NCBI RefSeq assembly: GCF_020023995.1
Contig: NZ_NRRD01000005.1
Span: 62,001-126,000 of the forward strand
Length of the DNA stretch: 64,000 nt
From: Rhodobacter sp. TJ_12
GTDB taxonomy: Bacteria > Pseudomonadota > Alphaproteobacteria > Rhodobacterales > Rhodobacteraceae
Direction of reading: 5' to 3'
Made by a program: the position numbers and the translations under genes. Below, one piece after another: positions 2,961 through 42,288 of this stretch (position 1 is the first letter of the stretch; each line of letters opens with the position of its first letter). The notes beneath the pieces are model-generated. The model saw only the letters and a program-made list of their open reading frames with translations, ran no database searches and was not told the DNA's origin.

Positions 2961-4393
2961 GTCAGTCCTCGGATTGCGGCCTGCGCCGCGCGGTAGCGGG
3001 CATGGCCTTCGTCAAATGCCGCACGCAAGCCTGAAACAGGCTCTATTACGGCTGAAATCGTGGGTTGGTGCGCCACTTCGGTGCCTGCGCCCGTGGCGGC
3101 CATCAGGGCCAAACGGGCCGCGCCAAAGGCGCCGCCAAAATCCCCCGCCACGGGCAGAGAAACCGGCGTGCCCAACGCGGTGGCAATCGCCTCGCACCAA
3201 TAGCGCGATTTGGAGCCGCCGCCGACGGCCAGCAGGCTTTCAATCTGCGTGCCCGTCGCCGCCAAAGCATCGCGGCAATCGCGAATGGCATAGGTCACGC
3301 CTTCCAGAACCGCGCGGGTGGCCCCCTCGCGGTCGGTCGCATGCTCAAGCCCGATAAACGCCCCGCGAATGGCGGCATCATTCAGCGGTGTGCGCTCGCC
3401 CCCCAAATAGGGCAGAAACAGGGTCTTTGCCGGGGCTTCCAACGCGTTCAGATCCGCCGTCAACGCCTGCGGTTCGGCCCCTACCAAACGCGCATACCAA
3501 TTCAGCGCATCGGTGGCCGACAAGATCACCCCCATCTGGTGCCATGTGCCGGGCAGCGCGTGGCAAAAGGTGTGCACAGCGGTCGCGGCATCGGGCTGAT
3601 AGCCGTCATTGGCCGCGAACAGCACGCCCGAGGTGCCAAGGCTGACAAACGCCTGCCCCGCCTTCACAACCCCCACACCAATGCCAGAGGCGGCATTGTC
3701 GCCGCCGCCACCGGCGACCACAGCACCAGAAGGAATGCCGAACCGGTCCGCCAATTCCGGGCGGAGTAGACCCGAAACCTCGGCCCCTTCGACCAGTCGC
3801 GGCATCTGATCGCGGCGCATGCCCGAGGCACTAAGCAACTCTTCCGACCAATCGCGTTTGCCAACATCCAGCCAAGCGGTGCCCGCCGCATCGGACATCT
3901 CCGCCACATGCTCGCCCGTCAGCCACAGCCGCAGATAGTCTTTTGGCAAAAGCACCTTGGCGACGCGGGCGAAAATAGCGGGTTCATGCTTGGCGACCCA
4001 AACCAGCTTCGGCGCGGTGAATCCGGGAAAGACGATATTGCCCGAAAGCGCGCGGAAGATCGGCTGCGCATCAAGTTCTGCCGCCTCCACATGCGAGCGG
4101 GTATCGTTCCACAAAATGCACGGGCGCAGCACATCATCCGAAGCATCAAGCAATGTTGCCCCGTGCATTTGCCCCGAAAGGCCGATGCCGCGCAAACTGC
4201 CCAAACCAAACCCAGCCAGCTCCGCCAGCACTTTTTCTGCGGCCCCGATCCAATCTGCCGGCGCCTGTTCGGACCAGCCCTCATACGGGCGCGACACGCT
4301 CAGCGGCGCGGTTGCCTCGGCCAGAACCTTTTGATCCGCGTCGATCAAAATGCCCTTCAGCCCAGACGTGCCCAGATCGAGACCAAGATACAT
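2957..4393 (-). CDS. xylB: xylulokinase
   Basis: FGGY-family sugar kinase (478 aa) that phosphorylates D-xylulose to xylulose 5-phosphate for the pentose phosphate pathway. The N-terminal ATPase fold starts [15 protein letters not shown] and carries [13 protein letters not shown], which is characteristic of xylulokinases; the C-terminal half contains the FGGY-type [14 protein letters not shown] and the adenosine-binding glycine-rich AVGGGSKS. It sits between the transporter ATPase gene and xylA with overlaps at both ends, so it is translationally coupled. The gene contains one exact copy of the dispersed 13-bp palindrome (3035-3047), which encodes the residues IEPVS with unusual codons. Confidence 0.97.
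3035..3047. repeat. dispersed palindrome AACAG-GCT-CTATT, copy in xylB
   Basis: Exact match to the consensus AAYAG-N3-CTRTT inside the coding sequence of xylB. It is the leftmost strong copy of the motif described in the findings. Confidence 0.6.
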
Positions 4394-5154
4394 CAGACCA
4401 TCCCCCCATCTGGTTTTTTGCCCAAGATGATCATGCCCAGAATGTCTTCATCTGTGACCTCATTCACATTCACCGTGCCGACAAGCTGGCCATTCTTCAT
4501 GACCGAGGCGCGGTCGCACAGCTTCATGACGTTATGAATGTCATGCTCAATCAAGAAGATGCCCAAGCCTTGGGCCTTCAGTTCCTGAATAAGCTCTGCC
4601 ACCATCTGGGTTTCATGCGGACCGAGCGCCGCGGTTGGCTCATCCATGATCAGGATCTTGGCGTTGAAATAGACCGCGCGCGCAATCGCCACCGATTGCC
4701 GCTGGCCGCCCGAAAGCGCCTTCACCGGCTCTTTGAATTTGCGGAAATTGGGGTTGAGACGGCCCATGATCTTGCGCGTCTCGGCCTCCATCTGCGCATC
4801 GTCAACAAAGCCCATGGGCGTTACCAACTCACGCCCGAGGAATAGGTTCGAGGCCGCATCGAGGTTATCGGCCAGCGCGAGCGTCTGGTAGATCGTCTCG
4901 ATGTTGTAGCGGCGCGCATCGCGCGGATTACGAATCTCGGCCTTGTTGCCGTTGATATAAATCGCGCCGCTGTCCATTTGATAAGCGCCCGACAGGCACT
5001 TGATCAGGGTCGATTTGCCCGCACCGTTGTGGCCCAGCAGGCCCACAACTTCGCCCGGATAGAGATCAACCGTGACATGATCGACTGCCTTGATCCCGCC
5101 AAAGGCAATGGAAACATCGCGCAGTTCGACAAGCGGGGTTTCTTGAATGCTCAT
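4393..5154 (-). CDS. sugar ABC transporter ATP-binding protein, single domain
   Basis: Cytoplasmic ATPase of the xylose importer encoded by this operon. The 253-aa chain has one complete nucleotide-binding domain: Walker [11 protein letters not shown]-loop in YQTLAL, signature LSGGQRQS, Walker [12 protein letters not shown] and switch His in IEHDIH. Classical XylG/RbsA/MglA proteins are about 500 aa with two fused domains, so this is the half-size form found with alphaproteobacterial sugar transporters such as FrcA; it would act as a homodimer. It overlaps the permease gene by four bases upstream and xylB by one base downstream. Xylose specificity is inferred from the operon only, so I give no symbol. 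Confidence 0.94.
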
Positions 5155-6440
5155 ACCTTTTCCCCCGTGCGCTTGCGGTATTGAATGTCGATCCAGACGG
5201 CCAGCACCAGCACGCCGCCAACCACGATGTTTTGGAACGGCGCATCTACGCCCACCATCGCCATGCCCGATTGCAGCGATTGCATGATGATTGCGCCCAG
5301 AACCGCGCCATAGATCGTGCCGATGCCACCCGCCAAAGCGGTGCCGCCAATGACCGCCGCCGCGATCACGCGCAACTCATCCAGCGTGCCGATATCATTG
5401 GTGTGGTTGGCCAAACGCGCTTGCGCCACCATCGCCGAAATCGCGCATAGCACCCCCATCAGGGTGAAAATCTTCACCGTCAGCATCCGCGTATTGATGC
5501 CCGAAAGCTCTGCCGCATCGGGGTTGCCCCCGGCGGCAAAAATATAGCGCCCCAACCGCGTGCGCTGGGCCAAAAGCGTCATCGCCACGGCAATGACGAT
5601 CAGCAGCAGCACCGAGATCGGCAGACCATAATAGGCGGTGAACCCTTCGGGCATGACCTCGCCCGCTTCGGCGAATTGCCGTTTGAGCCGCCCGATCGGA
5701 ATTTCATAGCTGTTCAGCAGCGCGACAAAGCCCATGATCGACATAACGGCAATGCCCATCAGCACGCCTTCGGCCCACATTGGCTTGACCGGAAATTCAT
5801 GCCGGATCTTGGCTTGGCGGGCCCGCCACAGCACGAACACCGCCAAAACAGAAAAGATTGCGCCCAAAACCCACGACATGGTGGCGCCGATCGTGCCCTC
5901 GACCCCACCGACCAGGCGGAAGGTCGGGTCCAGCGGGCCCAGCGTTTGCCCATCGGTCAGATACCAGCCGACGTTGCGCCAAATCAGCAGCCCCCCCAGC
6001 GTGACGATAAAGGCCGGAATGCGCTGATAGCCGATCAGCCACCCATTGAACGCGCCGATCACCGCCCCGGTCACGATGCCGCCGATCACGGTCAGCGGCA
6101 TGATCAGCGGATGGCCAAGGCCGAAATATTGCGGCAGCAATTGCACCTGCAACACCCCCATCACGGCGGAGCACATGGCCAAAACCGCGCCCACCGACAA
6201 ATCGATGTGGCGCGTCACGATCACGAAAACCATCCCCGTCGCCATGATCGCCACCGAAACGGTCTGGATCGACAGGTTGAAGATGTTGCGGGGGGTCAAA
6301 AAGCGCCCATCGGTGAACACGTTGAAGACAAGGCAGATCAAGACGAAAGCGCCGATCATGCCCAAAAGCCGCGTGTCTACCTCTAGCGATTGCAACAGCG
6401 ACCGCTTCGGGGCCGCCTCTTGCGGGGCCGAGTTGTTCAT
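5151..6440 (-). CDS. xylH: xylose ABC transporter permease
   Basis: Membrane channel subunit (429 aa, BPD_transp_2 family) of the CUT2-type sugar importer. About ten or more hydrophobic segments are visible, including the conserved [13 protein letters not shown] and the [22 protein letters not shown] region near the C-terminus that contacts the ATPase. The length fits XylH better than the shorter ribose permeases (about 320 aa), and the insert around residues 200-250 is typical of XylH. The gene follows the binding-protein gene after 89 bases holding a stem-loop, and overlaps the ATPase gene by four bases. Confidence 0.93.
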
Positions 6441-6495
6441 GGGGGTATCCGATTGCTGACGGGTCGCGCTGCGGCGCCTTTACGGGGCCGAACAA

Positions 6496-6518
6496 GGGCG
6501 GCCCTGCACAGGCCGCCC
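6496..6518 (-). terminator. intercistronic stem-loop between xylF and xylH
   Basis: Perfect 8-bp stem (GGGCGGCC / GGCCGCCC) with a 7-base loop, 11 bases after the xylF stop. It lacks a good T-run on the minus strand. Such hairpins after binding-protein genes commonly stabilise the upstream message and reduce read-through, giving more binding protein than permease; that role is inference here. Confidence 0.6.
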
Positions 6519-6529
6519 CAGGATTCAGA

Positions 6530-7549
6530 TCAGTTGCAGGGCGCCGGGCCGTTGGAAACGCCCTGGCACAGCGTTTCTTGCGAGATCCAGCCCGCATCCA
6601 CGACCACGCTCAGATTGTCTTGGGTGATTGGAACGGGCGCCAAGAACTTGGCCGTCATCATGGTGCCGGAGGGAGAGGTCCATTCCACCGCGCCATCAAC
6701 ATCGCTCATCGCGGCGCCGCCCGCCATCGACACGGCAATTTCGGCCGCCGCTTTGCCCAGCTCGCGCGAGTCTTTCCAAACCGACACGGTCTGCGTGCCC
6801 AGCGCAATGCGGTTCAGCGCGGCGTGGTCACCATCTTGGCCAGAAACCGGAACCACCATACCTTGCGCCGAAAGCGCGGCCACCGCGCCACCGGCGGTGC
6901 CATCGTTCGAGGCCACAACCGCATCGACATTGTTGTCATTCGCGGTCAGGATTTGTTCCATGTTGCGCTGCGCATTCGCGGGCAGCCAGCCATCGGTATA
7001 GGCTTCGCCCACAATGGTGATATCGCCCGCGTCAATCGCGGCTTGCAGCACCTCTTGCTGACCGCCGCGCAGGAAATCCGCGTTCGGGTCGGTGGGCGAG
7101 CCCTTGATCATCACATAATTGCCGGTGGGCGCTTTTTCGAACACGGCACGCGCTTGCATCCGGCCCACTTCGACATTGTCGAAGGTCAGGTAAAAGGCGC
7201 GCGGGTCTTCGATCAGACGGTCATAGGCAATGACCGGAATCCCTTCATCGGCCGCCGCTTGCACCGCCGGGCCAATGGCGGCCGTGTCTTGTGCCAGCAC
7301 GATCAGCGCATCCACACCCTGCGCCATCAAAGATTCAATATCCGACAATTGCTTGGCCGAGGACGATTGCGCATCGGCGGAAACATAGGTCGCACCGGCA
7401 GCCTCCAATGCCGATTTGATCGCCGCTTCATCGGTTTTCCAGCGCTCTTCTTGAAAGTTTGACCAAGACACGCCAACGGTCATGTCGGCATAGGCTGTGG
7501 TGGCAAGGCCGGCCGTCAGCGCGACGGCAGCCAAAAGGGGTTTATACAT
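6530..7549 (-). CDS. xylF: xylose-binding periplasmic protein
   Basis: Periplasmic sugar-binding component (339 aa) of the ABC importer, Peripla_BP_4 family. The start is ATG at 7549: it has a GGGAGGAAGA ribosome-binding site and gives a clean signal peptide (MYKPLLAAVALTAGLATTAYA, cleaved before DMTVGVSW). A longer frame continues upstream without a stop, but it would cross the divergent promoter region. XylF-like sequences include NFQEERWKTDEAAIK near the N-terminus, VIAYDRLIED in the middle and AVVASNDGTAGGAV in the second lobe. First gene of the xyl operon, and so likely the one most directly controlled by the operator region upstream. Confidence 0.95.
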   Translation of the reverse strand: MYKPLLAAVALTAGLATTAYADMTVGVSWSNFQEERWKTDEAAIKSALEAAGATYVSADAQSSSAKQLSDIESLMAQGVDALIVLAQDTAAIGPAVQAAADEGIPVIAYDRLIEDPRAFYLTFDNVEVGRMQARAVFEKAPTGNYVMIKGSPTDPNADFLRGGQQEVLQAAIDAGDITIVGEAYTDGWLPANAQRNMEQILTANDNNVDAVVASNDGTAGGAVAALSAQGMVVPVSGQDGDHAALNRIALGTQTVSVWKDSRELGKAAAEIAVSMAGGAAMSDVDGAVEWTSPSGTMMTAKFLAPVPITQDNLSVVVDAGWISQETLCQGVSNGPAPCN

Positions 7550-7623
7550 GTCTTCCTCCCGTTTTTGGCCCTTGCGAGCCGACCGGCGGATTCGCCGGAA
7601 TACAAAAAGGATGGGCGCAATAA

Positions 7624-7643
7624 TTTTAGTTGTCAAAATAAAA
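7624..7643. promoter_or_regulatory. candidate operator/promoter between xylF and the ROK repressor gene
   Basis: The 228-base divergent region has one markedly AT-rich stretch with an imperfect dyad: TTTTA at 7624-7628 and TAAAA at 7639-7643 separated by 10 bases. On the minus strand the spacer contains TTGACA (7636-7631), a perfect -35 hexamer directed at xylF; no convincing -10 lies 17 bases further on. A repressor bound to the dyad would cover that -35. This is a candidate only. Confidence 0.4.
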
Positions 7644-7777
7644 ATACGCGCCAAGAATGACAGAATGCGGTATTTCCCGACAATAACGCTGCGTCGCGGC
7701 ATATTTCTGGCGCTTTTCAGGGCGCATCTTGCTGCAAGCGCATTGTTTTGTTTACTTGGCGAAAGAAAGATGCGGGC

Positions 7778-9046
7778 ATGAGAAAGGTTTCCACCATCGG
7801 GCGCGGCTCTGTGGGCTGCGGCCCGCTGATCCAGCCGCTCTCTGATACCGGGCGCCCGCTGCGCCAGCAGATCTTTGAGCGTGTCCGCGCCGCGGGCCAA
7901 ATGGCGCGGGTCGGACTGGCCAAGGAATTGTGCATTTCCCCCGCCTCGGTCACCACGATCACATCGGAATTGATCGAAGCTGGGCTGCTCGAAGAGGTGC
8001 AGGCCAGCCGTGATGGTGAAACCGCGCGCGGACGCCCCGCCGTGGCGCTGCGCGTGCCCCCAAACCGCCGGCTTGTCGTGGGGATCAAACTTTCTGACCG
8101 CGAGCATACCGCCGTGCTGGTGGATTTCGCAGGCAATCTGATCGCGGGCGAGGCGATCCCGCGCAGCCCGGGCGCACTGGCGCTGGATTCGATCTTGGAC
8201 GCCGCCGAACGGCTTTTGGATCGGGTCTGCGCCAAAGGCGGCGTCTCGCGCGACCGGATTGAGGCCTTGGGCCTCGGCGTGCCCGGTTTCGTCGATGGCG
8301 ACAGCGGCGTGGTGCATTGGTCGCCCATTCTTTCCAGCCGCCATGTCGCGCTTCAGGCCGCCTTGCACGCGCGTCTGGGGCTAAGTGTTTTCATCGATAA
8401 TGACGCCAATCTTGTGACACTGGCCGAACTGTGGTTCGGCGCCGGACGGCGATTGTCTGACTTTGCCGTGGTCACGATTGAACATGGCGTGGGCATGGGC
8501 TTTGTGATCAACCACCGGCTCTATCGCGGCGCACGCGGCATGGGGATGGAATTGGGCCATACCAAGGTGCAATTGGATGGCGCCTTGTGCCGGTGTGGCC
8601 AGCGCGGTTGCCTAGAGGCCTATATTGCCGATTACGCGCTGGTGCGCGAGGCGCAGACCGCGCTGAACCTGCCCTTGGGCGAAATGCAATCCGTGGGCGT
8701 GATGCTGGAAAGCCTGTTTGATCATGCCAAGGCGGGCAATGCGGCGGCGCGGTCAATCTTTCGCCGCGCGGGGCGCTATTTGGCGGTGGGGCTTTCCAAT
8801 ATCGTCAACCTGTTCGACCCGGCGCTGATCATATTGTCGGGCGAGCGGATGCGGTATGATTACCTTTATGCCTCCGAAACGCTGTCGGAAATGCATGCGA
8901 TGATGCTCGATACCGGGCGCGACGCACCGCAGATTGAAACTCATGCTTGGGGCGATCTGCTTTGGGCGCATGGCGCGGCGGCGCTGGCCCTGCATGAGCT
9001 GACCGAACAATGGCTGGGCCCCAGCCGGGATATGGCGGCGCAATGA
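7778..9046 (+). CDS. xylR: ROK-family transcriptional regulator, probable xylose repressor
   Basis: Predicted DNA-binding repressor of the divergent xyl operon. The N-terminal winged helix-turn-helix covers about residues 25-75 (ARVGLAKELCISPASVTTITSELIEAGLL). The ROK sugar-kinase-like domain follows, starting LVVGIKLSDREH. The zinc-binding signature CRCGQRGCLEAY is present, as in Mlc/NagC/XylR, and supports inducer-controlled DNA binding. I chose ATG 7778 (422 aa) with GAAAGA upstream; a TTG 30 bases earlier would keep the frame but has poorer spacing. The stop overlaps the next gene by four bases, so the secreted propeller protein may be co-transcribed with the repressor. Specificity is inferred from position; symbol given on that basis. 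Confidence 0.88.
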   Translation: MRKVSTIGRGSVGCGPLIQPLSDTGRPLRQQIFERVRAAGQMARVGLAKELCISPASVTTITSELIEAGLLEEVQASRDGETARGRPAVALRVPPNRRLVVGIKLSDREHTAVLVDFAGNLIAGEAIPRSPGALALDSILDAAERLLDRVCAKGGVSRDRIEALGLGVPGFVDGDSGVVHWSPILSSRHVALQAALHARLGLSVFIDNDANLVTLAELWFGAGRRLSDFAVVTIEHGVGMGFVINHRLYRGARGMGMELGHTKVQLDGALCRCGQRGCLEAYIADYALVREAQTALNLPLGEMQSVGVMLESLFDHAKAGNAAARSIFRRAGRYLAVGLSNIVNLFDPALIILSGERMRYDYLYASETLSEMHAMMLDTGRDAPQIETHAWGDLLWAHGAAALALHELTEQWLGPSRDMAAQ

Positions 9047-10530
9047 AACGCTTCGCGCTTTGCCTGATCGCTGTGCCGGCCTGTGCCGATCCGGTTTTCG
9101 TGGATGAAGCGGCGAGCCTCCCGCATTCGCAAATTTATGCGGGCGGGTGGGAGCATTTCGTGGGCGGCGGGGTCGCCGTGCTGGATTGCAACGGCGATGA
9201 CCGGCCCGACTTGTTTGCGGCGGGCGGCGAAAACCCCGCCGCGTTGTTTGTAAACCAGTCCGCGCCGGGCAGGTCGTTTTACTTCATTTCAGGCAAAATA
9301 GAGCCTGTTTTAGGTGTAACCGGGGCTTATCCACTCGACATAGATTCCGATGGGGTGTTGGATCTGGCCGTGCTCCGTGCAGGCCCCAACCAGCTTTGGC
9401 GCGGTCTGGGCGATTGCCGCTTTGAGGATGCGACCGAAGCTTGGGGCCTGCCTACGCGCGATGATTGGACAACCTCTTTCACCGCCACATGGGAGAAGGG
9501 GCAAAACTTCCCCACGCTCTTCTTTGGCAATTACGTCGACCGCACCAACCCCGATGGCCCGTTCGAGGCCTGTGACAGCAACGCCCTGATGCGCCCAAAT
9601 GGGGCGAATTATGCTGGATTAGAGCCTATTTCCCCGGGCTATTGCGCGCTTTCTGCCCTGATCACCGATTGGCGGCGCAGCGGCGAGCCGGAACTGCGCA
9701 TCTCGAACGATCGCCATTACTATGTGCGCGGCGGCTATGAACAGATGTTCCGCCTGAAACCGCTGCAAGAGCGCAAAGATTGGCCGCATATCTCGCTTTG
9801 GGGCATGGGGATTGCCAGCCGCGACATCACCGGCGATGGCCTGCCCGAGGTGATGATGACCTCGATGGGGGATCAGCTTTTACAGATTAACCGTGGCGAT
9901 CATTTTGAAAACGCGCCTTACGCGCGGGGCACATATGCGCAGCGGCCCTTTGTGGGCGACGATGGCCGCCCTTCCACCGGCTGGCACCCCGCCTTTGGCG
10001 ATGTGGACAATGATGGCTTGGTGGATCTGTTCATCTCCAAGGGCAATGTGGACCAAATGCCCTCAAATGCGACGCATGACCCCAACAACCTGCTGATGCA
10101 GGCGCCAGATGGCACCTTTCACGAGGTTGCCGATACCGCCGGCATTGCCACCACGCATCGTTCACGCGGCGCGGCCTTGATCGATCTCAACGCCGATGGG
10201 CTGTTGGATTTGGTGGTGATGAACCGCCGCGCGCCAATGGAGCTTTGGCGCAATGCCACCGACAATACCGGCCATTGGGCCGAAATAGAGCCTATTCAGG
10301 CAGGCACCAACCCCCAAGCCGTGGGCGCTTGGGTCGAGCTGCGCGTGGGCGAGCGGGTCGAGACGCAAGAAGTCACCGTAGGCGGCGGCCATGCGGGGGG
10401 CGTGGCCGGGCCGCTCCATTTTGGGCTTGGCTCTGCCACGCAAGCCGAGGTGCGCGTGATTTGGCCCGATGGTGCGGTGGGGAACTGGCAGCCCGTCGCG
10501 CTGGATAAGCGCAAAAAGATCACCCGTTGA
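9043..10530 (+). CDS. secreted FG-GAP / ASPIC-UnbV beta-propeller protein (CRTAC1 family)
   Basis: Exported 495-aa protein. The start overlaps the xylR stop (ATGA) and gives a short signal peptide (MKRFALCLIAVPACA). At least five FG-GAP/VCBS repeats with calcium-binding DxDxDGxxD-type loops are visible: DCNGDDRPDLF, DIDSDGVLDLA, DITGDGLPEVM, DVDNDGLVDLF and DLNADGLLDLV. The C-terminal 80 residues form an ASPIC/UnbV domain (EVTVGGGHAGG, then LGSATQAEVRVIWPDG). Family function is poorly known; relatives bind calcium and proteins outside the cell. Its stop codon directly abuts the stop of the di-haem peroxidase gene on the other strand. The gene holds three copies of the dispersed palindrome. 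Confidence 0.9.
   Translation: MKRFALCLIAVPACADPVFVDEAASLPHSQIYAGGWEHFVGGGVAVLDCNGDDRPDLFAAGGENPAALFVNQSAPGRSFYFISGKIEPVLGVTGAYPLDIDSDGVLDLAVLRAGPNQLWRGLGDCRFEDATEAWGLPTRDDWTTSFTATWEKGQNFPTLFFGNYVDRTNPDGPFEACDSNALMRPNGANYAGLEPISPGYCALSALITDWRRSGEPELRISNDRHYYVRGGYEQMFRLKPLQERKDWPHISLWGMGIASRDITGDGLPEVMMTSMGDQLLQINRGDHFENAPYARGTYAQRPFVGDDGRPSTGWHPAFGDVDNDGLVDLFISKGNVDQMPSNATHDPNNLLMQAPDGTFHEVADTAGIATTHRSRGAALIDLNADGLLDLVVMNRRAPMELWRNATDNTGHWAEIEPIQAGTNPQAVGAWVELRVGERVETQEVTVGGGHAGGVAGPLHFGLGSATQAEVRVIWPDGAVGNWQPVALDKRKKITR
9297..9309. repeat. dispersed palindrome AATAG-AGC-CTGTT, copy in CRTAC1 gene
   Basis: Exact match to AAYAG-N3-CTRTT in coding sequence (encodes IEPVL using ATA GAG CCT GTT TTA). 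A one-mismatch copy lies at 9618-9630 in the same gene. Confidence 0.6.
10284..10296. repeat. dispersed palindrome AATAG-AGC-CTATT, copy in CRTAC1 gene
   Basis: Exact match with perfectly self-complementary arms, in frame with the 9297 copy (encodes EIEPIQ). Confidence 0.6.
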
Positions 10531-12869: not shown

Positions 12870-12966
12870 GGTCTCCTCCAACTGCGGCAAGCAGACCACA
12901 GCCCCAAATGTTGCGCAAGCGGCGTGAGGCGCTAGGTTAAAGCGGGGCGCAACGAAAGGAGCCGCC

Positions 12967-25614: not shown

Positions 25615-25688
25615 GAAAACCCCAAGCAGGGGCCCCCTGACGGAACCCATGCGCAAGATAGCAAAGACCGGCAATGACGCCAGAGGGG

Positions 25689-27547: not shown

Positions 27548-27631
27548 AAGATCCTCCGTTTGCGCCCATATGTGGGCCATGGCCCGCGCTTGCAAGGTGA
27601 CCGATTGCCCGAAACCCGAAGCAAGAAATGC

Positions 27632-27653
27632 AAAAGGGCGCCCGAAGGCGCCC
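27632..27653 (-). terminator. intrinsic terminator of trxA
   Basis: Perfect 7-bp stem GGGCGCC / GGCGCCC with a CGAA loop at 27636-27653, followed on the minus strand by TTTT (27635-27632). It lies about 20 bases past the trxA stop and separates trxA from hslVU. Confidence 0.9.
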
Positions 27654-27674
27654 CTGCACGGCATGTGAAGCGGA

Positions 27675-27995
27675 TCAGAGTTCCGATTCGATCCACGATT
27701 GCAGCGCCGCTTTCGGGGCCGCACCAATTTTGTTAGAGACCACTTGGCCATCTTTGAACATGAACAGCGCCGGAATGCCACGCACGCCCAGTTGCGCCGG
27801 GCTGTCGGGGTTTTCATCCACGTTGACCTTGACGATCTTCACCTTGCCGTTCATCTCGGTCGCGATTTCCTCAAGCGCGGGGCCGATTTGGCGGCAGGGG
27901 CCGCACCATTCGGCCCAAAAATCGACAACAACCGGGATGTCGGATTGGCGCACTTCGGCGTCAAAGGTGGCGTCGGTAACGGCGACGGTAGCCAT
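27675..27995 (-). CDS. trxA: thioredoxin
   Basis: Cytoplasmic disulfide reductase of 106 aa with the canonical redox site [13 protein letters not shown] and cis-Pro region [12 protein letters not shown]. It reduces ribonucleotide reductase, methionine sulfoxide reductases and others. ATG 27995 has an AGGAG site; five more codons are open upstream. It is the last gene of a long leftward run starting at tsaE and including addB and addA, 54 bases after addA, and is followed by a strong terminator. Confidence 0.97.
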
Positions 27996-28049
27996 GATAT
28001 TCTCCTGCATTTGCGGTTGCGCGGAAGGTAGGGTCCCGCCGGTGTTACG

Positions 28050-31000
28050 TCAAGAACCTGCGGGCAAGGCGAGGGGTAAGGCCAGCGCCGCCTCCATCTG
28101 CGCGGACGACAGCGGCATGATCTCGCCCGTCACGGTCCACAAGAGCAAACACTCCACACCCCGGCCCGGGTAAATCTGGCGCAACGCGGCGCGATAGGCC
28201 GCCATCTGCCGCACAAGGCCCAAAGGCACCTGATCGGCGGTTTCGGGCACCACGGCGTTCGATTTGTAATCCAGCACCCGCACTCGGTCCGGCAGAACCT
28301 GCAAGCGGTCCACAATCCCGTGCAGCTTTTGCCCTCCCAATTCGGGCAAATCGGCGGTTAGTTCCACCTCGGCCAAAGAGACGTCTTCCAGCAGGCCCGC
28401 CTCGGCGACCGCGTGCAAAACCTGCTGCGCTTGCGCCAAAATCGTCTCTATCTCGCCCGGATCAGCGCGATCTTCGCCGATTGCCAGCAGGTCGCGCGCG
28501 ACCTCGGGCCAAGACTCCTTGGACCATTGCGGCAAATGTTCCAATAGCAGGTGCAATTGCCGCCCGCGCCGCAAGGCCTCGTCTTGCGACAAGGCCGCTG
28601 TTTCGCCGGGCAGTGACTTTGCGCCGCCCAGATCAGAGGCAGAAAGCACCTTGGCCGTGCCCGCGCGTGGGGCCACGCGCCGCAAGGCCCAATCGGGCAG
28701 ATCGACGGGGTCGGGCGCTTCTGGCACGGCGCGCGCGCCCGGGGCGGGCCAGTCCCCATGCGCAAAGCGGCGGATCTCGCCCAGCGCCTGCACTTCCGGC
28801 GAAAGCCCCAAAACAGTCTCTGTTCCAGCCTGAGTCATGCCCGCTTCAATCAGCGAATACCAGCTTTCGCCCTTGGTATCTTCATCGCCCGCCTGCGCGA
28901 CGATCAGCCATTTCTCGGCCCGTGTCATCGCCACATACAAAAGCCGCAAGCGTTCTTGGTGTTCACGCTCCAGCCGCGCGTCCTGTGCGGCGGCCAAGAC
29001 CTCGGGTTGCGGTTTGAAACTGCCCTTCCACAGCGCCCCGGCCTCTGCATCGCGCAGGATTTCGCCGCCTTGGGAGGCGTTGCGCGGCGCGGTATCGGGC
29101 ATGATCACAATCGGCGCTTCCAATCCCTTGGAGCCATGCACCGTCATCACCCGCAGCGCTTGACCCGCGCCTTCAAGCTGGCGCTTGATCTCCACCTCTT
29201 CGGCGCCAAGCCACGCAAGGAACCCGGTCAGGCTTGGCACCTCGGTGCTTTCATAGGCCAAAGCCTGCGCGATCAGCGCATCGATCCCCTCTTCCGCCTC
29301 GGGGCCAAGCCGCGCGACCAGCTTGCGCCGCCCCTCATGACGGATCAGCAGCCGCGCAATCAAGTCATGCGGGCGCAGGAAGTCGGCTTGATCGCGCAGA
29401 TCGTGCAAGACCTCCAACACGTCTTCATGCGCACTTTCGCGCAACGCCTGCCACAAGAACCCCTTGCGGCCATGCGCAAGCGCAAAAAGCGCCGCCTCCC
29501 CCAAACCAAAAAGCGGCGAGCGCAAGGCTTCGGCCAAGGCCAGATCGTCTTCGGGCGTCGCCAAAAAGGCCAAAACAGAGACGATATCCTTCACCGCCAA
29601 CTCGCCGCCCAATCGCAAACGGTCGGCCCCGGCCACCGCGATGCCGCGCGCCTTGCACGCCCGGATCACCTCATGAAACAGTTCCTTGCGGCGTTGCACC
29701 AGCACCAGAAAATCGCCCGCATGCACCGGGCGCGGGCCGTTTGGATCTGGAATCTGCACCCCGGCGTCGATCATCGCGGCAATCTCTGCCGCCACCGCGC
29801 GCGCCAAAACCACCGGCGCCGTATCTTCGCCCGGCAGATCGACGGGTTGTTCCCAATCTTTGCTTTCGGCGGTTTCGGGCTTGGGCACAACCGGCCATAG
29901 ATCGACCCGGCCGGGCAGATCTTCGTGAAAGGCCAGGTGTTCGGGCGCGCCCCCCACCCCCGCAGCGGCCGCACCCTGAAAGGTCAGATCCACCAAGCGC
30001 AAGATCGCCAAAGACGAACGGAAAGAATGCAGCAAGGCCGCGTCTTGCAGCGGGCGCTGCACAGCTTGAAACTTTTCCGAAAAGCGGCTCTTGACCGCCT
30101 CAAAATGCTCCAGATCTGCGCCTTGGAAGGAATAGATCGATTGCTTGCGGTCGCCCACCACAAAGATCGTGCGTTCCTGCCCGCGCGCGCCGACCCCAGC
30201 CGTAAATTCATCGGCCAGCCGCTCGATCACCTGCCATTGCCCCGGCGAGGTATCTTGCGCCTCGTCGACCAAGATGTGATCGATCCCGCCATCCAGCTTG
30301 AACAGCACCCATTGCGCGGTTGTGGGATTGGACAAAAGCACCCCGGCGCGTTCGATCAGATCGTCGAAATCAAGCCAGCCGCCTTGCGCCTTTTGCGCGG
30401 CAAGGCGCGGTAAAAGCACCCGCGCAAAGCGATGCAGCGCCAAAGTGCGATCAAGCGCCTGAAGCGCGATTTCCATCTGGCGCGCGGCAAAGACCTGATC
30501 GGCCAGTTCCCGAAACGCCTCGCAAACCGCTTCGCCCGCGACATCGGCAGGGCCCTTGTTCAAAAGCTTTTTCAGAACATGCGTGCCCTCTTTCACAATC
30601 ACCAGATCGGCCAAAGCGGCAAATTCCGGCAGGCCCGGATCGCTGAAATCGATTGCCGAAAGGCCCGCCACCAACTTTTTCATGGTTGTGCCTTTGTCGG
30701 TCTTGGCAGCGGCAATCACCGCTGAAATCAGCGCCGGGGTGGCCGTATCAAACACCAGTGCGGGCAGGTCTTGCAGGGTCAGCCCGGCTGGTATCTGCAA
30801 GGCGCGGCGCAGCGCGGCCTCGTCGACTTCACGCTCAAAAACGGCTCTGTTTTGGCTGATTTCATCGATGACTTTGGCCAATTCCGCGCCGGTGAAATGG
30901 CGCAAGAACGCATCGAGCACCGGCCTGTCCGGTCCATCGGCGATTTTTTCCAGCACCTCTTCGCGCATCCGCCGAGCGGAGCGTTCATCCAGCTCGACAA

Positions 31001-31433
31001 AGCCATGCGACACGCCCGCCTCCAGCGGGAACCGCCGCAAAAGTGCGCCGCAAAAAGCGTGGATCGTCTGGATCTTCAGCCCGCCCGGCGCCTCGATCGC
31101 CTGTGCGAACAGCCGCCGCGCGCGGGCAAGGCTTTCGCCATCCAGCGCCCCTTCGACGCCCAGCGCCTCCAATTCGGCGCGCAGCGCGGCGTCTTCCAGC
31201 ATCGCCCAGCCGCCCAAGCGTTTCAAAAGCCGGTTCTGCATCTCGGCAGCGGCGGCTTTGGTATAGGTCAGGCACAGCACCTTTTGCGGCTCTGTTCCGG
31301 CAAAAAGCAGCCGCGCGACGCGGTCGGTCAACACCCGCGTCTTACCCGAACCCGCATTTGCGGCCAGCCAGGTGGAGCGGCCCGGATCGGCGGCCCGCAC
31401 CTGCCGTTCGGTGGCATCGTCACGACGGCTCAT
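28050..31433 (-). CDS. addA: double-strand break repair helicase-nuclease AddA
   Basis: UvrD-type 3'-5' helicase with a C-terminal RecB-family nuclease (1127 aa), the alphaproteobacterial counterpart of RecBCD with AddB. Helicase motif I AANAGSGKTRVL (about residues 25-36), LCLTYTKAAAAEMQ, Walker B DHILVDEAQDTS and motif III VVGDRKQSIYSFQGAD are present; VMTVHGSKGLEAPIVI is motif V. The nuclease site is in VDRLQVLPDRVRVLDYKSN near the C-terminus. The start overlaps the addB stop by four bases. It contains an exact copy of the dispersed palindrome at 28812-28824 and several half copies. Confidence 0.97.
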   Translation of the reverse strand: MSRRDDATERQVRAADPGRSTWLAANAGSGKTRVLTDRVARLLFAGTEPQKVLCLTYTKAAAAEMQNRLLKRLGGWAMLEDAALRAELEALGVEGALDGESLARARRLFAQAIEAPGGLKIQTIHAFCGALLRRFPLEAGVSHGFVELDERSARRMREEVLEKIADGPDRPVLDAFLRHFTGAELAKVIDEISQNRAVFEREVDEAALRRALQIPAGLTLQDLPALVFDTATPALISAVIAAAKTDKGTTMKKLVAGLSAIDFSDPGLPEFAALADLVIVKEGTHVLKKLLNKGPADVAGEAVCEAFRELADQVFAARQMEIALQALDRTLALHRFARVLLPRLAAQKAQGGWLDFDDLIERAGVLLSNPTTAQWVLFKLDGGIDHILVDEAQDTSPGQWQVIERLADEFTAGVGARGQERTIFVVGDRKQSIYSFQGADLEHFEAVKSRFSEKFQAVQRPLQDAALLHSFRSSLAILRLVDLTFQGAAAAGVGGAPEHLAFHEDLPGRVDLWPVVPKPETAESKDWEQPVDLPGEDTAPVVLARAVAAEIAAMIDAGVQIPDPNGPRPVHAGDFLVLVQRRKELFHEVIRACKARGIAVAGADRLRLGGELAVKDIVSVLAFLATPEDDLALAEALRSPLFGLGEAALFALAHGRKGFLWQALRESAHEDVLEVLHDLRDQADFLRPHDLIARLLIRHEGRRKLVARLGPEAEEGIDALIAQALAYESTEVPSLTGFLAWLGAEEVEIKRQLEGAGQALRVMTVHGSKGLEAPIVIMPDTAPRNASQGGEILRDAEAGALWKGSFKPQPEVLAAAQDARLEREHQERLRLLYVAMTRAEKWLIVAQAGDEDTKGESWYSLIEAGMTQAGTETVLGLSPEVQALGEIRRFAHGDWPAPGARAVPEAPDPVDLPDWALRRVAPRAGTAKVLSASDLGGAKSLPGETAALSQDEALRRGRQLHLLLEHLPQWSKESWPEVARDLLAIGEDRADPGEIETILAQAQQVLHAVAEAGLLEDVSLAEVELTADLPELGGQKLHGIVDRLQVLPDRVRVLDYKSNAVVPETADQVPLGLVRQMAAYRAALRQIYPGRGVECLLLWTVTGEIMPLSSAQMEAALALPLALPAGS
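28812..28824. repeat. dispersed palindrome AACAG-TCT-CTGTT, copy in addA
   Basis: Exact copy with perfectly self-complementary 5-bp arms. On the coding strand it encodes TETVL with ACA GAG ACT GTT TTG. Partial copies in the same gene lie near 28440, 29574, 30847 and 31290. Confidence 0.65.
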
Positions 31434-34369
31434 TCCACATCCTCCGGCACCGACGGATCGGTGATATCCCATTCCCCAAATCGCGAAAGATGATCGTAAT
31501 CGCTGGGGTCTTTGATGCTTTGCGGCGCGCGGCGCGCCACAAACCCCTGATCTTGGTCGTGATACCGCGCGATCAGCGCCTGCAATTTCACCCAAGTCTC
31601 TTCGATCTCGTCCGGGCCCTGTTTCAGCGTGCGCGTTTCACCCGCCCCTCCCAGCCGAATATAGCGCATGGCGGAAACGGCGCGCGGACCGATCGCGTCA
31701 AAGGCGCCGCGCGTGACCATCGCGGCCTCAAGCGGCAATTGCTTGTCGAAATGATCAACCTCTGGATCGGTGGGCAATCGGCCGGATTTGTAGTCGTAGA
31801 CAACCGCGCTGCCATCATGCAGCACATCGATCCTGTCGGGCTGGGCGGTCAGCGTGAAATCGAGCCCGGGCAGCGCCAGTCCAGCCCGGCTTTCCACCAC
31901 GGCGGGCGCGCCCTCTTGGCGACGCAGAAATTCTTGCGCCACGAAAGTCGGCGCGATCCGCACCATATTGGCCAGCCACATCCGTTGTGCCGAGGGCCAA
32001 GGAATGCGCGCCGAAAACACTTGTTCGGCAATCTGCAGCAGGGCTGCTTGCGCCTGTTCGGGCGATTGCTGCGGGTCGAATTGTTCGACGAACTTTTCCA
32101 CAACGGCATGCAAAGCCTCGCCGCGCAGCCGCGCATCGGGCACGGGGCTCAGCGGATCGAGCGGTTTGAGCCGCAAAATGCTGCGGGCGTAAACCGAATA
32201 GGGATCACGGATCAGCCGCTTGATCGCTGTGACCGACAATTTCCGGGGTCGGGCCTTAACGGGCGGACGCGGGGCTGGCCGCGCCGCCGGAGGCACCGGC
32301 GCAGCGGGCCGCTCTATCGCCTCGGCCAAGGCCAGCCAGCGCGCGCCCCTATCGCGCATCTGATCCAATGCCTTGGGCCCGCCTTGGTCGGGCAAACCGC
32401 CCATCAGGTTCAAAAGCCGGTTGAGCCAGCGCGCGGGCACCGTTTCTGCCTCGGCATCGCGGCGCGCGCGGCTCAGCACCACCTGCCCTGCCGCAATGGC
32501 TTGCTGAAAGTCATGCGCCGCCAAGCCAATCTGCCGTTCAGGCAGCAAAAGGCCGGAATCGAGCCGCATTTTTCGGCTCAGCCATGGGTCGGGCGCAGGG
32601 GCCTCGGGCCAGCTTTTCTCGTTCAACCCGGCCAAGATCACCAGATCCGCGCCATGGGCGCGCGCCTCCAGCGTGCCCAGAAAGCTGACTTGCGGATGCG
32701 CGGCCAGCGGGTTGCGCACCTGCCCCGCGTCAAGAAGGGAGTCGATCAGATCGGCGTAATTCGCCGCCGAAACCGCCAGATCAGGGCCCGCCTCGGCCTG
32801 CAAATCCGCCACGATCCGTTGACAGGCCTGCCCCGCCGCGCCCAGCCACAATTCGCTGGCCGCGACGCTGCCTTCTGGCCCAGCGCAAAATCCTTCGAGC
32901 AAAGTCTGATGCGCCGCGAGCCAATGCGGGATGGTTTCGCGGCCCGGTGGCACGATCTGCGCCAACAAATCGGCCAGCCAGGCGCCCCAAAGCGCCTGTT
33001 CGGGCGGGCCAGCCGCACCCCAAGAGCGGATATCCTCTGCTGTGGGGAAGGCCGGGCCATCGCGGCGCAGTTTCAACTCCAATTCGCGCGTCAGGCGCAA
33101 ATGCGTGCCGCGTCTGGCCGAGCCGGTGGCGACCAGCGGATGTTTCAGCACGACCAGCAGGCTTTCAAGCGTCAGCGGGCGCCCCAAGAGCCGCGCAAGA
33201 TGGCGCAACAGCCGCCCCGGCGCGGTTTGCGCCAAGGGCTGGCCTGCGGAATCATCGGGAATAATCGCCCACCGGTCCAGCGCCGCCGCGACCCGGCGCG
33301 TCAGCATCCGGTCGGGGGTGACAAGCGCTGCGGTTTGCCCCCGCTCCACCGCGTCCCGCAAGATCAGCGCCAGCGCAAGGGCCTCTTGCCGCGGATCGGC
33401 GGCCTCCAGCAAGGTGATATCGGCGCAGCGCGCGGGCAGATCGTCCAAAGCCTGGCCTTCGCGCATCCATTGATCGGTCACGGGCGAAGGGCGCAGGGCC
33501 AAAGACACAAGCGCATTGCGCCCCGGCGCGGGTGGGGCAGCGGCGGTCCAAGGCTGCACCTGCGCGGGCCCCATGCCAAGCCCTTCCAAAAGCGCAAGAA
33601 AGCGATATTGCGGATGATCTTCGATCGGAAAAGGGCCAGAACAGAGACTGTTCCACGCCGCATCGGGCATATCGAAATCAAACCCCGGCAGCACCAGCGC
33701 GCCTTGCGGTAATTGCGCCACCGCCTGCATCAAAAGCCGCGTCGCACCCCGCGACCCGGTAGAGCCCGCCACAATCACCCGCCCCGGATCGGGCGTTTCC
33801 GCCCAGTTTTGCACCAGATATTCAACGACATGACGCTGCCGTGCCTCGGGGTCGGGCGTGGTGTCATTTGCAAAATACCGCGCCACGATCTGAATGAAAC
33901 GCAGGCTTTGGTGCCAATGCTCGGCGTGGGAGTCATGGATATCTAGCTGTTCGAGCGCCTCGGGCGGCACGCCTTCGCTGTGCATCTCATCCATCAAGGC
34001 GGCCAAACTGTCAGTCAGGCTGAAAATGCCGCTGCCGGTTTCAAAGGCGGGCAGACCGCGCGCCAAACCCTCGACCAATTGCGCCAGTTCCAGCTTGCGG
34101 CGCAACGGCGGCATGGCGGGCGGAAGCCCCGGCACCGGAAAGCGCACCAGATCCGAAATAAGCTGCAAACGCGGCAAAAACCGGGTGCCGCGGCGGTCAA
34201 ACGCTTCGCGCACACGGCGCTGCATCCGGCCCGAGTTGAGGTAAAGCCGCGTGCGCGCCATCTCTTCGGGCGGGGCGTCGGACAGCCGATCGATCAGCCC
34301 ATCAACCAGTTCCGTTGCGAAATCCACCCCGCAGGGCAGCGCGAAAACCTTTGGCTCAGCTTGCGGCAT
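31430..34369 (-). CDS. addB: double-strand break repair protein AddB
   Basis: Partner of AddA (979 aa); the alphaproteobacterial type. It starts MPQAEPKVFALPCGVDFATE and I see no intact Walker A in the N-terminal region, consistent with a degenerate helicase fold. A RecB-type nuclease domain occupies the C-terminal 250 residues with DRIDVLHDGSAVVYDYKSG as the catalytic core. ATG 34369 is internal to a longer open frame that runs into the murU sequence; the 14-base overlap with murU suggests coupling. An exact, perfectly symmetrical copy of the dispersed palindrome is at 33640-33652. Confidence 0.95.
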   Translation of the reverse strand: MPQAEPKVFALPCGVDFATELVDGLIDRLSDAPPEEMARTRLYLNSGRMQRRVREAFDRRGTRFLPRLQLISDLVRFPVPGLPPAMPPLRRKLELAQLVEGLARGLPAFETGSGIFSLTDSLAALMDEMHSEGVPPEALEQLDIHDSHAEHWHQSLRFIQIVARYFANDTTPDPEARQRHVVEYLVQNWAETPDPGRVIVAGSTGSRGATRLLMQAVAQLPQGALVLPGFDFDMPDAAWNSLCSGPFPIEDHPQYRFLALLEGLGMGPAQVQPWTAAAPPAPGRNALVSLALRPSPVTDQWMREGQALDDLPARCADITLLEAADPRQEALALALILRDAVERGQTAALVTPDRMLTRRVAAALDRWAIIPDDSAGQPLAQTAPGRLLRHLARLLGRPLTLESLLVVLKHPLVATGSARRGTHLRLTRELELKLRRDGPAFPTAEDIRSWGAAGPPEQALWGAWLADLLAQIVPPGRETIPHWLAAHQTLLEGFCAGPEGSVAASELWLGAAGQACQRIVADLQAEAGPDLAVSAANYADLIDSLLDAGQVRNPLAAHPQVSFLGTLEARAHGADLVILAGLNEKSWPEAPAPDPWLSRKMRLDSGLLLPERQIGLAAHDFQQAIAAGQVVLSRARRDAEAETVPARWLNRLLNLMGGLPDQGGPKALDQMRDRGARWLALAEAIERPAAPVPPAARPAPRPPVKARPRKLSVTAIKRLIRDPYSVYARSILRLKPLDPLSPVPDARLRGEALHAVVEKFVEQFDPQQSPEQAQAALLQIAEQVFSARIPWPSAQRMWLANMVRIAPTFVAQEFLRRQEGAPAVVESRAGLALPGLDFTLTAQPDRIDVLHDGSAVVYDYKSGRLPTDPEVDHFDKQLPLEAAMVTRGAFDAIGPRAVSAMRYIRLGGAGETRTLKQGPDEIEETWVKLQALIARYHDQDQGFVARRAPQSIKDPSDYDHLSRFGEWDITDPSVPEDVE
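33640..33652. repeat. dispersed palindrome AACAG-AGA-CTGTT, copy in addB
   Basis: Exact copy; the symmetry extends one base on each side (GAACAG / CTGTTC, 33639-33653). On the coding strand it encodes NSLC. Confidence 0.65.
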
Positions 34370-35048
34370 CGGCCAACATCTCCTCGGCAAGCGCAATGCA
34401 GTCGGGCCGGCCCACATCGCACCAGCCGCCCGAGTGCACAACACCATAGGCACGCCCGGCCGCGATGATCTGGTTCCATAACAAATTAAGCGAAAAAGCC
34501 TGTTCTGAAATCGTCTCTAATCCAGCGGGATCGAGGATTTGCGCGCCAGTGTAAACATAGCCCGGACCGCGCCGGATTTGCCCATCGGGCAGAAGCGTGA
34601 AATCCCCCTCCCCTTGATACCCCCGCGCCGCCGCAACCGGCACAAGCGCCAAAAGCGCCGACATTCGAGCAGGCTCCCAAGCCGCGCGCAGGGTTTGCAG
34701 CACATTCGGCCCGGTCCAAGCCGCATCGGTATTGAGCGTGAAGACCGGCCCCGGCCCCAAAAGCGGCAGCGCCTTGCGCAAACCGCCCCCGGTTTCCAAA
34801 AGCGCATCGCTTTCCTCCGACACCACGACATCGCGCCCCGCCAGATGCGCGGCAACCTGATCGCCAAGATAATGCGTGTTGGCTACGACGCGGCCGATCT
34901 GCGCGCCCTGCACCAGCGCCAAGGCATGATCGATCAAGGGGCACCCCGCCACCGCGATCAACGGTTTGGGCCGGGTTTCCGTCAAATGCTTCATCCGCGT
35001 GCCGCGCCCGGCCGCAAAAAGCATCAGCGCATCGGGTGGTGTCCGCAT
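34356..35048 (-). CDS. murU: N-acetylmuramate alpha-1-phosphate uridylyltransferase
   Basis: Nucleotidyltransferase (230 aa) that converts MurNAc 1-phosphate and UTP to UDP-MurNAc in the cell-wall recycling route that bypasses de novo synthesis. The nucleotide-binding signature is LMLFAAGRGTRMKHLTETRPKPLI; the metal Asp lies in VFTLNTDAAW. The next gene upstream is the AmgK-type kinase, which makes its substrate, so function is well supported by context. It overlaps amgK by 25 bases and addB by 14 bases. A related nucleotidyltransferase activity cannot be ruled out from sequence alone. Confidence 0.88.
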   Translation of the reverse strand: MRTPPDALMLFAAGRGTRMKHLTETRPKPLIAVAGCPLIDHALALVQGAQIGRVVANTHYLGDQVAAHLAGRDVVVSEESDALLETGGGLRKALPLLGPGPVFTLNTDAAWTGPNVLQTLRAAWEPARMSALLALVPVAAARGYQGEGDFTLLPDGQIRRGPGYVYTGAQILDPAGLETISEQAFSLNLLWNQIIAAGRAYGVVHSGGWCDVGRPDCIALAEEMLADAAS

Positions 35049-36022
35049 TCGCGTTTCATCCTCTCGATCAAATCGGCATCGGGCGGCGGCAGCGCCGCAT
35101 CGACGGCGTCGCGCAGCGGGGACAAGCGCGGATGGGCCAGATTGCGCTGCAACGCCCCCCAGACCCGGGGCATCAGCGCCAGATAGCCGGGCTTGCCCAT
35201 CGCAAGGCAGAGCCGCGCAAAAATACCCAAAATCCGCAAAGCGCGCTGCGCGCCCAAAAGCGCATAGGCAAATTCGAAAGTATCAAGGTCAACCCCACGC
35301 AGCCGGGCATAGCGGGCGCGTTCGGCCGCCTCGATTACGGGGGGCACATCGCGGCGTGCATCTTGCAAAGCAGAGACCAGATCATAGGCTGGATGGGCCA
35401 CCACCGCGTCTTGAAAATCCAGCAGCCCCAACCGGGCTGGGCCAGAGCGCTCCGGTAGCCAGATGACGTTTTCGGCGTGAAAATCGCGCAAAGCCAAAAC
35501 CGACGAAACAGGATCTGTTTCACCATAAAGCTGGGCAATCAGCGGCGCCAGTTCCGCAGCGGCGTCGCTGTTGTGCACCGGATACCACTCCGGCAGTAAC
35601 GTCACCAGATCCCCCAGCGCCGGGCCATCCAACACCGGCACGATGTTGGGCGCGGGGATTTGATGCAGCGCCAGAAGGAAATCTGTGATCGCAGCATAAT
35701 ATGCGGCCTCCTGCGCGGGCTGGTCGCGCAAAAGCCGCGCCAAAAGCGCATCGCCAAAATCTTCAAGCAGCATCAACCCCAGATCGGGCGCACTGGCCAA
35801 AAGACGCGGGGCGGAAAAGCCCTGTTCTAAAAGCCACGCATCAATGCGGCAAAAGCGGGTGAATTCCACCCCCGGGGCGGCAACCATCAAGACCGCCGTC
35901 TGCGCATCTAGGTGTAGCCGCTCATACCGGCGGGCCGAGGCATCCCCCGCCAACGCAGACCGTTGCGCCGCGCCCCATCCTGCGCCCGCGACGAAGGCGG
36001 TGATTTCGGCCTCAGTTGCCAT
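35024..36022 (-). CDS. amgK: anomeric MurNAc/GlcNAc kinase
   Basis: APH-fold kinase (332 aa) expected to phosphorylate the anomeric hydroxyl of MurNAc and GlcNAc released in wall turnover. The catalytic loop is LRDFHAENVIWLPE and the metal-binding loop LGLLDFQDAV. N-terminal LAGDASARRYERL is the phosphate-binding strand region of this subfamily. ATG 36022 overlaps the 3' end of tsaE by 11 bases. The gene has the most symmetrical copy of the dispersed palindrome (35505-35521), encoding ETDPVS. Confidence 0.88.
   Translation of the reverse strand: MATEAEITAFVAGAGWGAAQRSALAGDASARRYERLHLDAQTAVLMVAAPGVEFTRFCRIDAWLLEQGFSAPRLLASAPDLGLMLLEDFGDALLARLLRDQPAQEAAYYAAITDFLLALHQIPAPNIVPVLDGPALGDLVTLLPEWYPVHNSDAAAELAPLIAQLYGETDPVSSVLALRDFHAENVIWLPERSGPARLGLLDFQDAVVAHPAYDLVSALQDARRDVPPVIEAAERARYARLRGVDLDTFEFAYALLGAQRALRILGIFARLCLAMGKPGYLALMPRVWGALQRNLAHPRLSPLRDAVDAALPPPDADLIERMKRECGHHPMR
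35505..35521. repeat. 17-bp dispersed palindrome GAAACAG-GAT-CTGTTTC in amgK
   Basis: Best copy of the motif: 7-bp perfectly complementary arms around a 3-base centre, inside coding sequence and not followed by a T-run on either strand. Confidence 0.7.
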
Positions 36023-36500
36023 GAAAACCCGCCTCAAGCGAGTCCAGCCGGGCAGCCCAGTCCGGCCCACCGCAAAGCCGCACGCGCCGCGAGGCCCCGC
36101 CATTTTCAAGCGAAAACCGCAAGGATAGAGCCTTTTCGGGCTGATCTTGGCCCAACCGCTCGGGCCATTCGACAAGGCAGATCGCGGTGTCAAACGCCTC
36201 GTCCAGACCCAGTTCGATCGCCTCATCGGGATGGGTCAGCCGGTAAAGATCGGCATGCCAGATTTCGGGCTCCGCCCCATAGGTTTGCACCAGCGTGAAG
36301 GTGGGCGAGGGCACATCTTCCGCCGATCCCAGCCGTGCGCGGATCAGGGCGCGCGCGAAATGCGTTTTGCCTGCACCGATCGGGCCATCAAGCAGCAGGA
36401 CATCGCCCGGCAGGACCAGCGCGGCAAAGGTTTCGCCCAGCCGCGCAGTGGCATCGGCATCGGGCAGATCGAGGGTGAAAAGATCGGCATCATCGGGCAT
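36012..36500 (-). CDS. tsaE: tRNA threonylcarbamoyladenosine biosynthesis ATPase TsaE
   Basis: P-loop ATPase (162 aa) of the TsaBDE complex that makes t6A37 in ANN-decoding tRNAs. Walker A is DGPIGAGKTHFARAL, followed by the conserved PSPTFTLVQTYG and WHADLYRL. Length and order are normal. It heads the leftward run tsaE-amgK-murU-addB-addA-trxA, an arrangement shared with other Rhodobacteraceae, and lies 40 bases after the PAS-protein gene. Confidence 0.95.
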   Translation of the reverse strand: MPDDADLFTLDLPDADATARLGETFAALVLPGDVLLLDGPIGAGKTHFARALIRARLGSAEDVPSPTFTLVQTYGAEPEIWHADLYRLTHPDEAIELGLDEAFDTAICLVEWPERLGQDQPEKALSLRFSLENGGASRRVRLCGGPDWAARLDSLEAGFHGN

Positions 36501-42287: not shown

Positions 42288-42288
42288 A

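Follow-up and report, generated by a model that had tools for sequence, protein, structure and literature searches.

The DNA analysed here, called the window throughout, is a stretch of 64,000 nucleotides from Rhodobacter sp. TJ_12. It covers positions 62001–126000 of contig C5 (NZ_NRRD01000005.1, 158.7 kb); the genome (G000) has 3.58 Mb in 114 contigs. The placement in Rhodobacter agrees with the named relatives of one of its proteins, which show 72% identity in R. aestuarii and 60–62% in R. capsulatus. The window contains a family of palindromic sites with the core AAYAG-N3-CTRTT, which lie inside genes and belong to a cluster around two copies of the partition site parS. Genes were called with a crude in-house caller, by which 94–96% of the DNA is coding. 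Pfam scans were made of 20 open reading frames of the window, six of them antisense to genes called later, and then of 9 more. The sites are listed below with their scores against a position weight matrix (PWM), numbered from the first letter of the window.

3035–3047, minus strand: exact core site in an FGGY-type sugar kinase gene (xylB-like), 30.1 bits
9297–9309, plus strand: exact core site in an FG-GAP/UnbV_ASPIC (CRTAC1-like) gene, 31.8 bits
9618–9630, plus strand: one-mismatch core site in the FG-GAP/UnbV_ASPIC (CRTAC1-like) gene, 29.3 bits
10284–10296, plus strand: exact core site in the FG-GAP/UnbV_ASPIC (CRTAC1-like) gene, 36.7 bits
11828–11840, plus strand: exact core site in a di-haem cytochrome c peroxidase gene, 33.3 bits
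15637–15649, minus strand: exact core site in a LysR-family gene, 31.6 bits
17957–17969, plus strand: half or weak site, 16.1 bits
28440–28452, minus strand: weak site in addA, 21.5 bits
28812–28824, minus strand: exact core site in addA, 32.8 bits
29574–29586, plus strand: half or weak site in addA, 17.5 bits
30839–30851, minus strand: weak site in addA, 20.5 bits
33640–33652, plus strand: exact core site in addB, 31.0 bits
34509–34521, minus strand: weak site in a nucleotidyltransferase (murU-like) gene, 20.4 bits
35507–35519, minus strand: exact core site in an amgK-like kinase gene (Pfam APH), 27.7 bits

An earlier note, made from the letters of this DNA, had described the eight exact copies and the one-mismatch copy at 9618, and all are present where it placed them. 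The half copies that it listed are also there, those at 30847 and 31290 on the minus strand, although the one at 36124 reads GATAGAGCC and is one letter off. The eight exact copies compare with a mean of 0.02 and a largest value of 1 in 100 dinucleotide-preserving shuffles of the window, and the 11 copies found with one mismatch allowed compare with 1.94 expected. The note was right that no exact copy lies from 36.2 to 64 kb, but its description of the cluster as a property of half the window was a matter of framing, because the cluster passes both window ends. Exact copies resume at window-equivalent positions 68077 and 68584 (C5:130077 and 130584), and weaker sites occur at -2130 (C5:59870) and at about 64.9 kb (C5 about 126.9 kb). 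Its statement that no copy is intergenic holds within the window, which means little because so much of the DNA is coding, and fails outside it, at C5:59870. This is the exception among the 18 sites of C5 scoring at least 15 bits, the other 17 being inside called genes. The C5 sites occupy reading frames 0, 1 and 2.

The motif is longer than the 13 bp first proposed and its centre is asymmetric. Its consensus, AWTYnnGCYGR-AAYAG-AGM-CTRTT-YYnGC, is a pseudo-palindrome of about 30 bp, derived from 50 exact-core sites from seven origin regions and from 138 sites of at least 20 bits from eleven. The arms are palindromic, with the left half of the motif stronger than the right, and the centre is mostly A-G-A/C (A in 98% at -1, A or C in 99% at +1), a pattern that suggests a dimer site whose centre is asymmetric. 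Exact-core sites from seven genomes served to train both the PWM and a 33-bp profile (R1). PWM scans excluded the scanned genome for the site scores, the origin regions, the turnover comparison and the window-genome shuffles, and included training genomes for the spot scans of G014 and G016, the 138-site consensus and the orientation counts. Profile searches included the training genomes, their E-values are rough, and the profile scored part of the first-look candidates, such as 150 of 756 in the window genome and 59 or 50 per genome in the family and class samples.

The sites are concentrated on one contig. There are 16 exact matches to AAYAG-N3-CTRTT in the whole genome, compared with 3 for a backwards control; 10 of the 16 are on C5, and 16 of the 17 profile matches at E≤1 are on C5. 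The first centre base, in the suitable orientation, is A in 10/10 exact copies on C5 and in 0/6 of those elsewhere. Three off-cluster copies (C4:57008, C4:156106 and C38:9562), all within called genes, read AACAGCGCCTGTT on one strand; with a centre unlike that of the clustered sites, they are probably chance occurrences. The 9-mer AAYAGAGMC occurs 16 times on C5, always at 58–131.5 kb and never in the other 85 kb, compared with a mean of 3.65 and a maximum of 8 in 60 codon shuffles of the contig.

Codon-preserving shuffles, run on C5 rather than on the whole genome, do not reproduce the cluster. The 10 exact cores on C5 compare with a mean of 0.18 and a maximum of 1 in 100 shuffles, and the numbers of sites at thresholds of 11, 15, 20 and 25 bits are 26, 18, 16 and 11, compared with 5.0, 2.7, 1.35 and 0.1 (n = 100). 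The sites are also conserved in relatives at positions where the codon is free to change. Where the amino acid under an exact core is conserved, the codon is identical in 39/43 cases in G002, 32/38 in G012 and 25/32 in G008 (usable cores: 10, 9 and 8 of ten, respectively). The codon-matched expectations are 22.7, 13.7 and 10.7, and none of 100,000 simulations reached the observed values. A wider set of 18 sites gives 76/86, 58/76 and 45/65 identical codons (48.5, 32.5 and 25.7 expected) in the same genomes; the exact-core test is the cleaner one because those relatives contributed to the PWM by which the wider set was obtained. The earlier suggestion that DNA rather than protein is selected is thus borne out by both tests, and selection on the DNA at these sites is supported.

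The position of the cluster makes sense in the light of features that the earlier note did not mention: a pair of parS sites, the parAB genes and an oriC-like gap. The parS sites were called as exact matches to TGTTTCACGTGAAACA, which we take to be the parS consensus. The following lie in the window and are given as context, with no implication that ParB binds the candidate sites.

55384–56283, minus strand: parB, chromosomal partition protein (Pfam scan)
56280–57101, minus strand: parA (Pfam scan)
57667–57682, strand not assigned: canonical parS, TGTTTCACGTGAAACA, exact match
59569–59584, strand not assigned: canonical parS, TGTTTCACGTGAAACA, exact match
62823–63223, strand not assigned: oriC-like intergenic gap between UPF0093 (hemJ-like) and maf-like genes, with four DnaA-box-like 9-mers

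Both parS matches of the genome are on C5, with none elsewhere at up to two mismatches, and the gap at 62823–63223 is the putative replication origin. C5 also carries, near 47–53 kb, what we presume from their N-termini and order to be dnaA-dnaN-recF-gyrB-like genes. With the parS pair, parAB and the oriC-like gap on the same contig, the cluster is origin-proximal. The dnaA-like gene (window -14941 to -13583, C5:47059–48417) is about 76 kb away from the oriC-like gap, and most of the site cluster is between the two. Within the origin domain, window positions 38247–45149 are without strong sites and hold a regB/senC/regA/hvrA/hvrB/ahcY-like redox-regulation gene set, in which the H-NS, LysR and HD families have Pfam matches and the remaining names are assumed from N-termini.

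Similar clusters are found across the genus. A profile match at E≤0.05 is present in 17 of 18 genomes (125 matches in total), and the refined 13-mer has 67 matches in the 18 genomes compared with 5 for its backwards control. In 14 genomes the contig that holds parS carries 100 of the 104 profile matches; the genomes left out of this count are G001 (2 matches, no parS match), the very fragmented G004 and G013 (2/12 and 2/7 matches on their own parS contigs), and G016 (no match). The assemblies of G010 and G014 are the most complete: all 8 profile matches of G010 (two contigs, 3.9 Mb) are within 54 kb of parS and all 8 of G014 (contig C1, 3.46 Mb) are within 144 kb. At a PWM threshold of 15 bits no site was found in G014 at 1–60 kb, in the final 40 kb of contig C1 or at 240–260 kb, although one of its profile matches is at position 330 kb. 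At the same threshold there was none from +100 to +224 kb of parS in G002 and from +60 to +212 kb in G012. Eleven origin regions each contain 10–26 sites of at least 15 bits, compared with 0–1 in reversed-sequence controls; these are nearly all intragenic and no more than roughly 150 kb from parS. Both orientations occur on either side of parS in most genomes and there is no consistent polarity, the greatest skew being in G014 (10 plus and 2 minus on the left side).

Outside the genus, clusters occur in no fewer than four further genera of this family, with parS linkage seen in G045, G049, G113 and the single-contig G020. G049 has 26 sites of at least 15 bits, and 7 of the 8 profile matches (E≤1) of G020 are within 143 kb of parS when the contig is taken as a circle. 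Further profile matches are found in G155 (4) and G078 (1), counted without regard to distance from parS. In the family sample 61 of 120 genomes, including the window genome and one genus-mate, have a profile match at E≤0.1. The class sample gives 36 of 142 genomes at this threshold, including the window genome, which is above the nominal one in ten; 35 of the 36 have one to three matches, a number exceeded in the window genome alone. Clusters are thus seen in this family only, and the samples leave others possible.

The positions of the sites are partly shared with relatives and partly turned over. Strong sites whose position also carries a site in the window genome number 12/15 in G002, 10/13 in G012 and 9/19 in G008, and in other genera 3/8 (G045), 4/17 (G049) and 1/8 (G113). 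The position of the 3035 site scores at least 25 bits in G002, G008, G012, G045 and G006, which are all five of the other genomes aligning there, and the 10284 site also has an orthologous site in these five. In the table of orthologous positions, rearranged blocks differ in their site positions.

The site family itself is very well supported, and its likely function can be proposed from its properties. A non-polar, mostly intragenic, origin-restricted palindrome selected as DNA fits the needs of a chromosome-domain protein. The sites are probably the recognition sites of a dedicated, putative protein that organises the origin domain beside ParAB-parS. This putative DNA-binding protein, probably dimeric, would recognise the sites of about 30 bp and coat or bridge the origin domain; the bound domain could then be marked, condensed or anchored alongside ParAB-parS, for instance by attachment at the cell pole or by marking the position of division. 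Among the options raised in the earlier note, a site for a nucleoid or segregation protein fits. A study of R. sphaeroides describes a transient, tight polar localisation of OriC1, which its authors regard as suggesting that the origin is attached to a polar factor (PMC6315104). This attachment is a natural candidate role for the putative binder. We suggest more tentatively that Rhodobacter and part of its family may possess a second centromere-like system besides ParABS, in which a dedicated protein bound at the 10–26 mostly intragenic sites around the origin would provide the missing polar anchor or the division-site mark of the origin domain.

Several observations weigh against the reading of the sites as those of a dedicated origin-domain protein. 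Distance from parS is no simple predictor of sites: over 39 positions in the ortholog table, cells with a site number 97/244 within 60 kb, 14/35 at 60–85 kb, 5/28 at 85–120 kb and 17/38 beyond 120 kb. The addAB-side block in G006 and G014 retains strong sites 112–145 kb from parS, and about 25 kb of the window genome across regBA-parAB-oriC is without strong sites. The genus member G016 lacks any profile match, and the 40 kb around its parS (C16:1–40000) contains only two weaker sites, while the sole profile match of G003 is off its parS contig. Profile matches are lacking in 59 of the 120 family genomes, only 1 of the 4 matches of G107 is near parS and 2 of the 3 of G173 lie about 185 kb or less from it. 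Among 149 family genomes, 67 contain the refined 13-mer and about 50 contain its backwards control, so that the 13-mer by itself carries little weight at this level. Finally, no binder was found among the candidates screened (a ParB_N paralogue, H-NS/HvrA and conserved neighbour genes).

The weaker sites in G016 score 17.0 and 19.8 bits at about 5–6 kb from parS, and the reversed control has none. In G006 (C60) and G014 (C1) the displacement of the addAB-side block gives two separate site blocks. A general rule that sites track distance to parS was considered and rejected. It holds for gene positions near C5:15729, 28069 and 33360, which have a site in 14/21 cells where parS is no farther than 40 kb away and in 0/9 at 86–111 kb, but these three were picked post hoc, and a single rearrangement may account for the nine distant cells, all of them in three genomes of one genus; over the whole table the rule fails.

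The candidate binders were set aside on the following grounds. A Noc-like ParB_N paralogue does not account for G049, which has a cluster yet only one PF02195 match (E≤0.001), the chromosomal ParB. H-NS/HvrA is encoded within the cluster, and the cluster-bearing G113 and G020 have no PF00816 match at E≤0.001. In a partial survey by eye, none of the genes matched in all six comparison regions resembled a new DNA-binding protein. Auto-regulation gave no clue to the binder, as each of the ten off-cluster matches inspected, from four genomes, lies within a called gene. An RNA hairpin was also rejected: the window has no Rfam match at gathering scores and five sites fold at z-scores of -0.2 to -1.9.

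Other explanations of the sites must be weighed against a dedicated origin-domain protein. They might be divergent secondary sites of the chromosomal ParB that widen the partition complex, and it is in keeping with this that they share the parS neighbourhood, that those having CTGTTTC/GAAACAG share the TGTTTC of parS, and that in G049 the chromosomal ParB is the only ParB_N protein. We nevertheless consider this unlikely. The arms of the sites point outwards relative to those of parS, the centre is unlike that of parS, and the right-arm G is replaced by A in 31% of sites, which breaks the TGTTTC match. A genome-wide search with TGTTTCACGTGAAACA at up to two mismatches matches the two parS sites and none of the candidate sites. 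As far as is known, ParB retains parS specificity across the class, and parS is unchanged in 30 of the 31 genomes tested, whereas the motif clusters are seen in one family only. A condensin or SMC loader, or another factor that folds the origin domain without anchoring it, would agree with dense, non-polar and domain-restricted sites; it is an improbable alternative, since nothing here speaks for it specifically and loading of Smc-ScpAB usually goes by way of ParB.

Operators for the local regulon of a transcription factor would explain a palindromic, dimer-type motif, but 17 of the 18 C5 sites are intragenic and not at promoters, and the ten off-cluster matches inspected in four genomes are likewise intragenic. 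This makes such operators very unlikely and agrees with the earlier argument against a simple operator. The same note had also listed uptake sequences, modification sites and repair sites. As short recurrent intragenic motifs, with addA and addB among the host genes, the sites could bring to mind polar signals of replication or repair, of the Chi, KOPS or Ter kind, or uptake or modification sites. These do not fit because a genome-wide spread would be expected, while the profile matches are origin-confined and their orientation is inconsistent; a genome-wide or strand-biased spread was looked for and not found, the arms are palindromic, and we regard signals of this kind as highly improbable. 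Chance, codon usage or relics of repeat elements could draw on the small size of the initial sample and on nothing further, and are scarcely credible given the shuffles, the conservation at synonymous positions and the recurrence in other genera.

A recognition sequence for a dedicated origin-domain protein would be of practical value, as its exact sequence could serve as bait for a protein that organises the chromosome in a model group of photosynthetic bacteria with imaged origin positioning. If true, an alphaproteobacterial case would show origin-domain systems arising and turning over within coding sequence. To our knowledge, site families of the origin domain with a dedicated binder, besides parS, are known from Bacillus. 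For this group a transient polar attachment has been suggested (PMC6315104). A search of open-licence PMC full text for the core 13-mers returned one irrelevant paper, and titles and abstract openings on Rhodobacter or alphaproteobacterial palindromes, ChIP-seq, macrodomains, nucleoid motifs and Hi-C from the same source gave no report of the sites, although absence there is not proof.

The sites can be compared with several known systems. ParB-parS also has palindromic, origin-proximal sites, but two exact parS sites coexist with the present sites in the genome, and the two differ in sequence and geometry. MatP of Enterobacteria acts through matS, a 13-bp palindrome whose centre is three bases long and which in many copies defines one chromosome domain; matS, however, marks the terminus and has another sequence, whereas the present sites surround parS. 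The ram sequence of Bacillus looks unrelated to the present motif. ZapT of Caulobacter is an alphaproteobacterial, domain-specific DNA binder with sites mostly within open reading frames, but it is terminus-biased, has 10 positions and a consensus motif was not found for it (PMC7188993). As working analogues, RefZ-RBM and RacA-ram of Bacillus come closest (PMC6657595, PMC6593407). RefZ-RBM has near-palindromic sites near oriC and on both arms, bound by one protein, and their oriC-relative location is conserved in the genus (PMC6657595); it differs in having five RBMs where the present sites number 10–26 with gain and loss, and RefZ is a TetR-family protein of sporulation. The ram sites differ in extending over the remaining chromosome too (PMC6593407). 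The origin-proximal concentration seen for both RacA-ram and RefZ-RBM is found here as well, with the origin placed from parS, parAB and the DnaA-box-like sequences.

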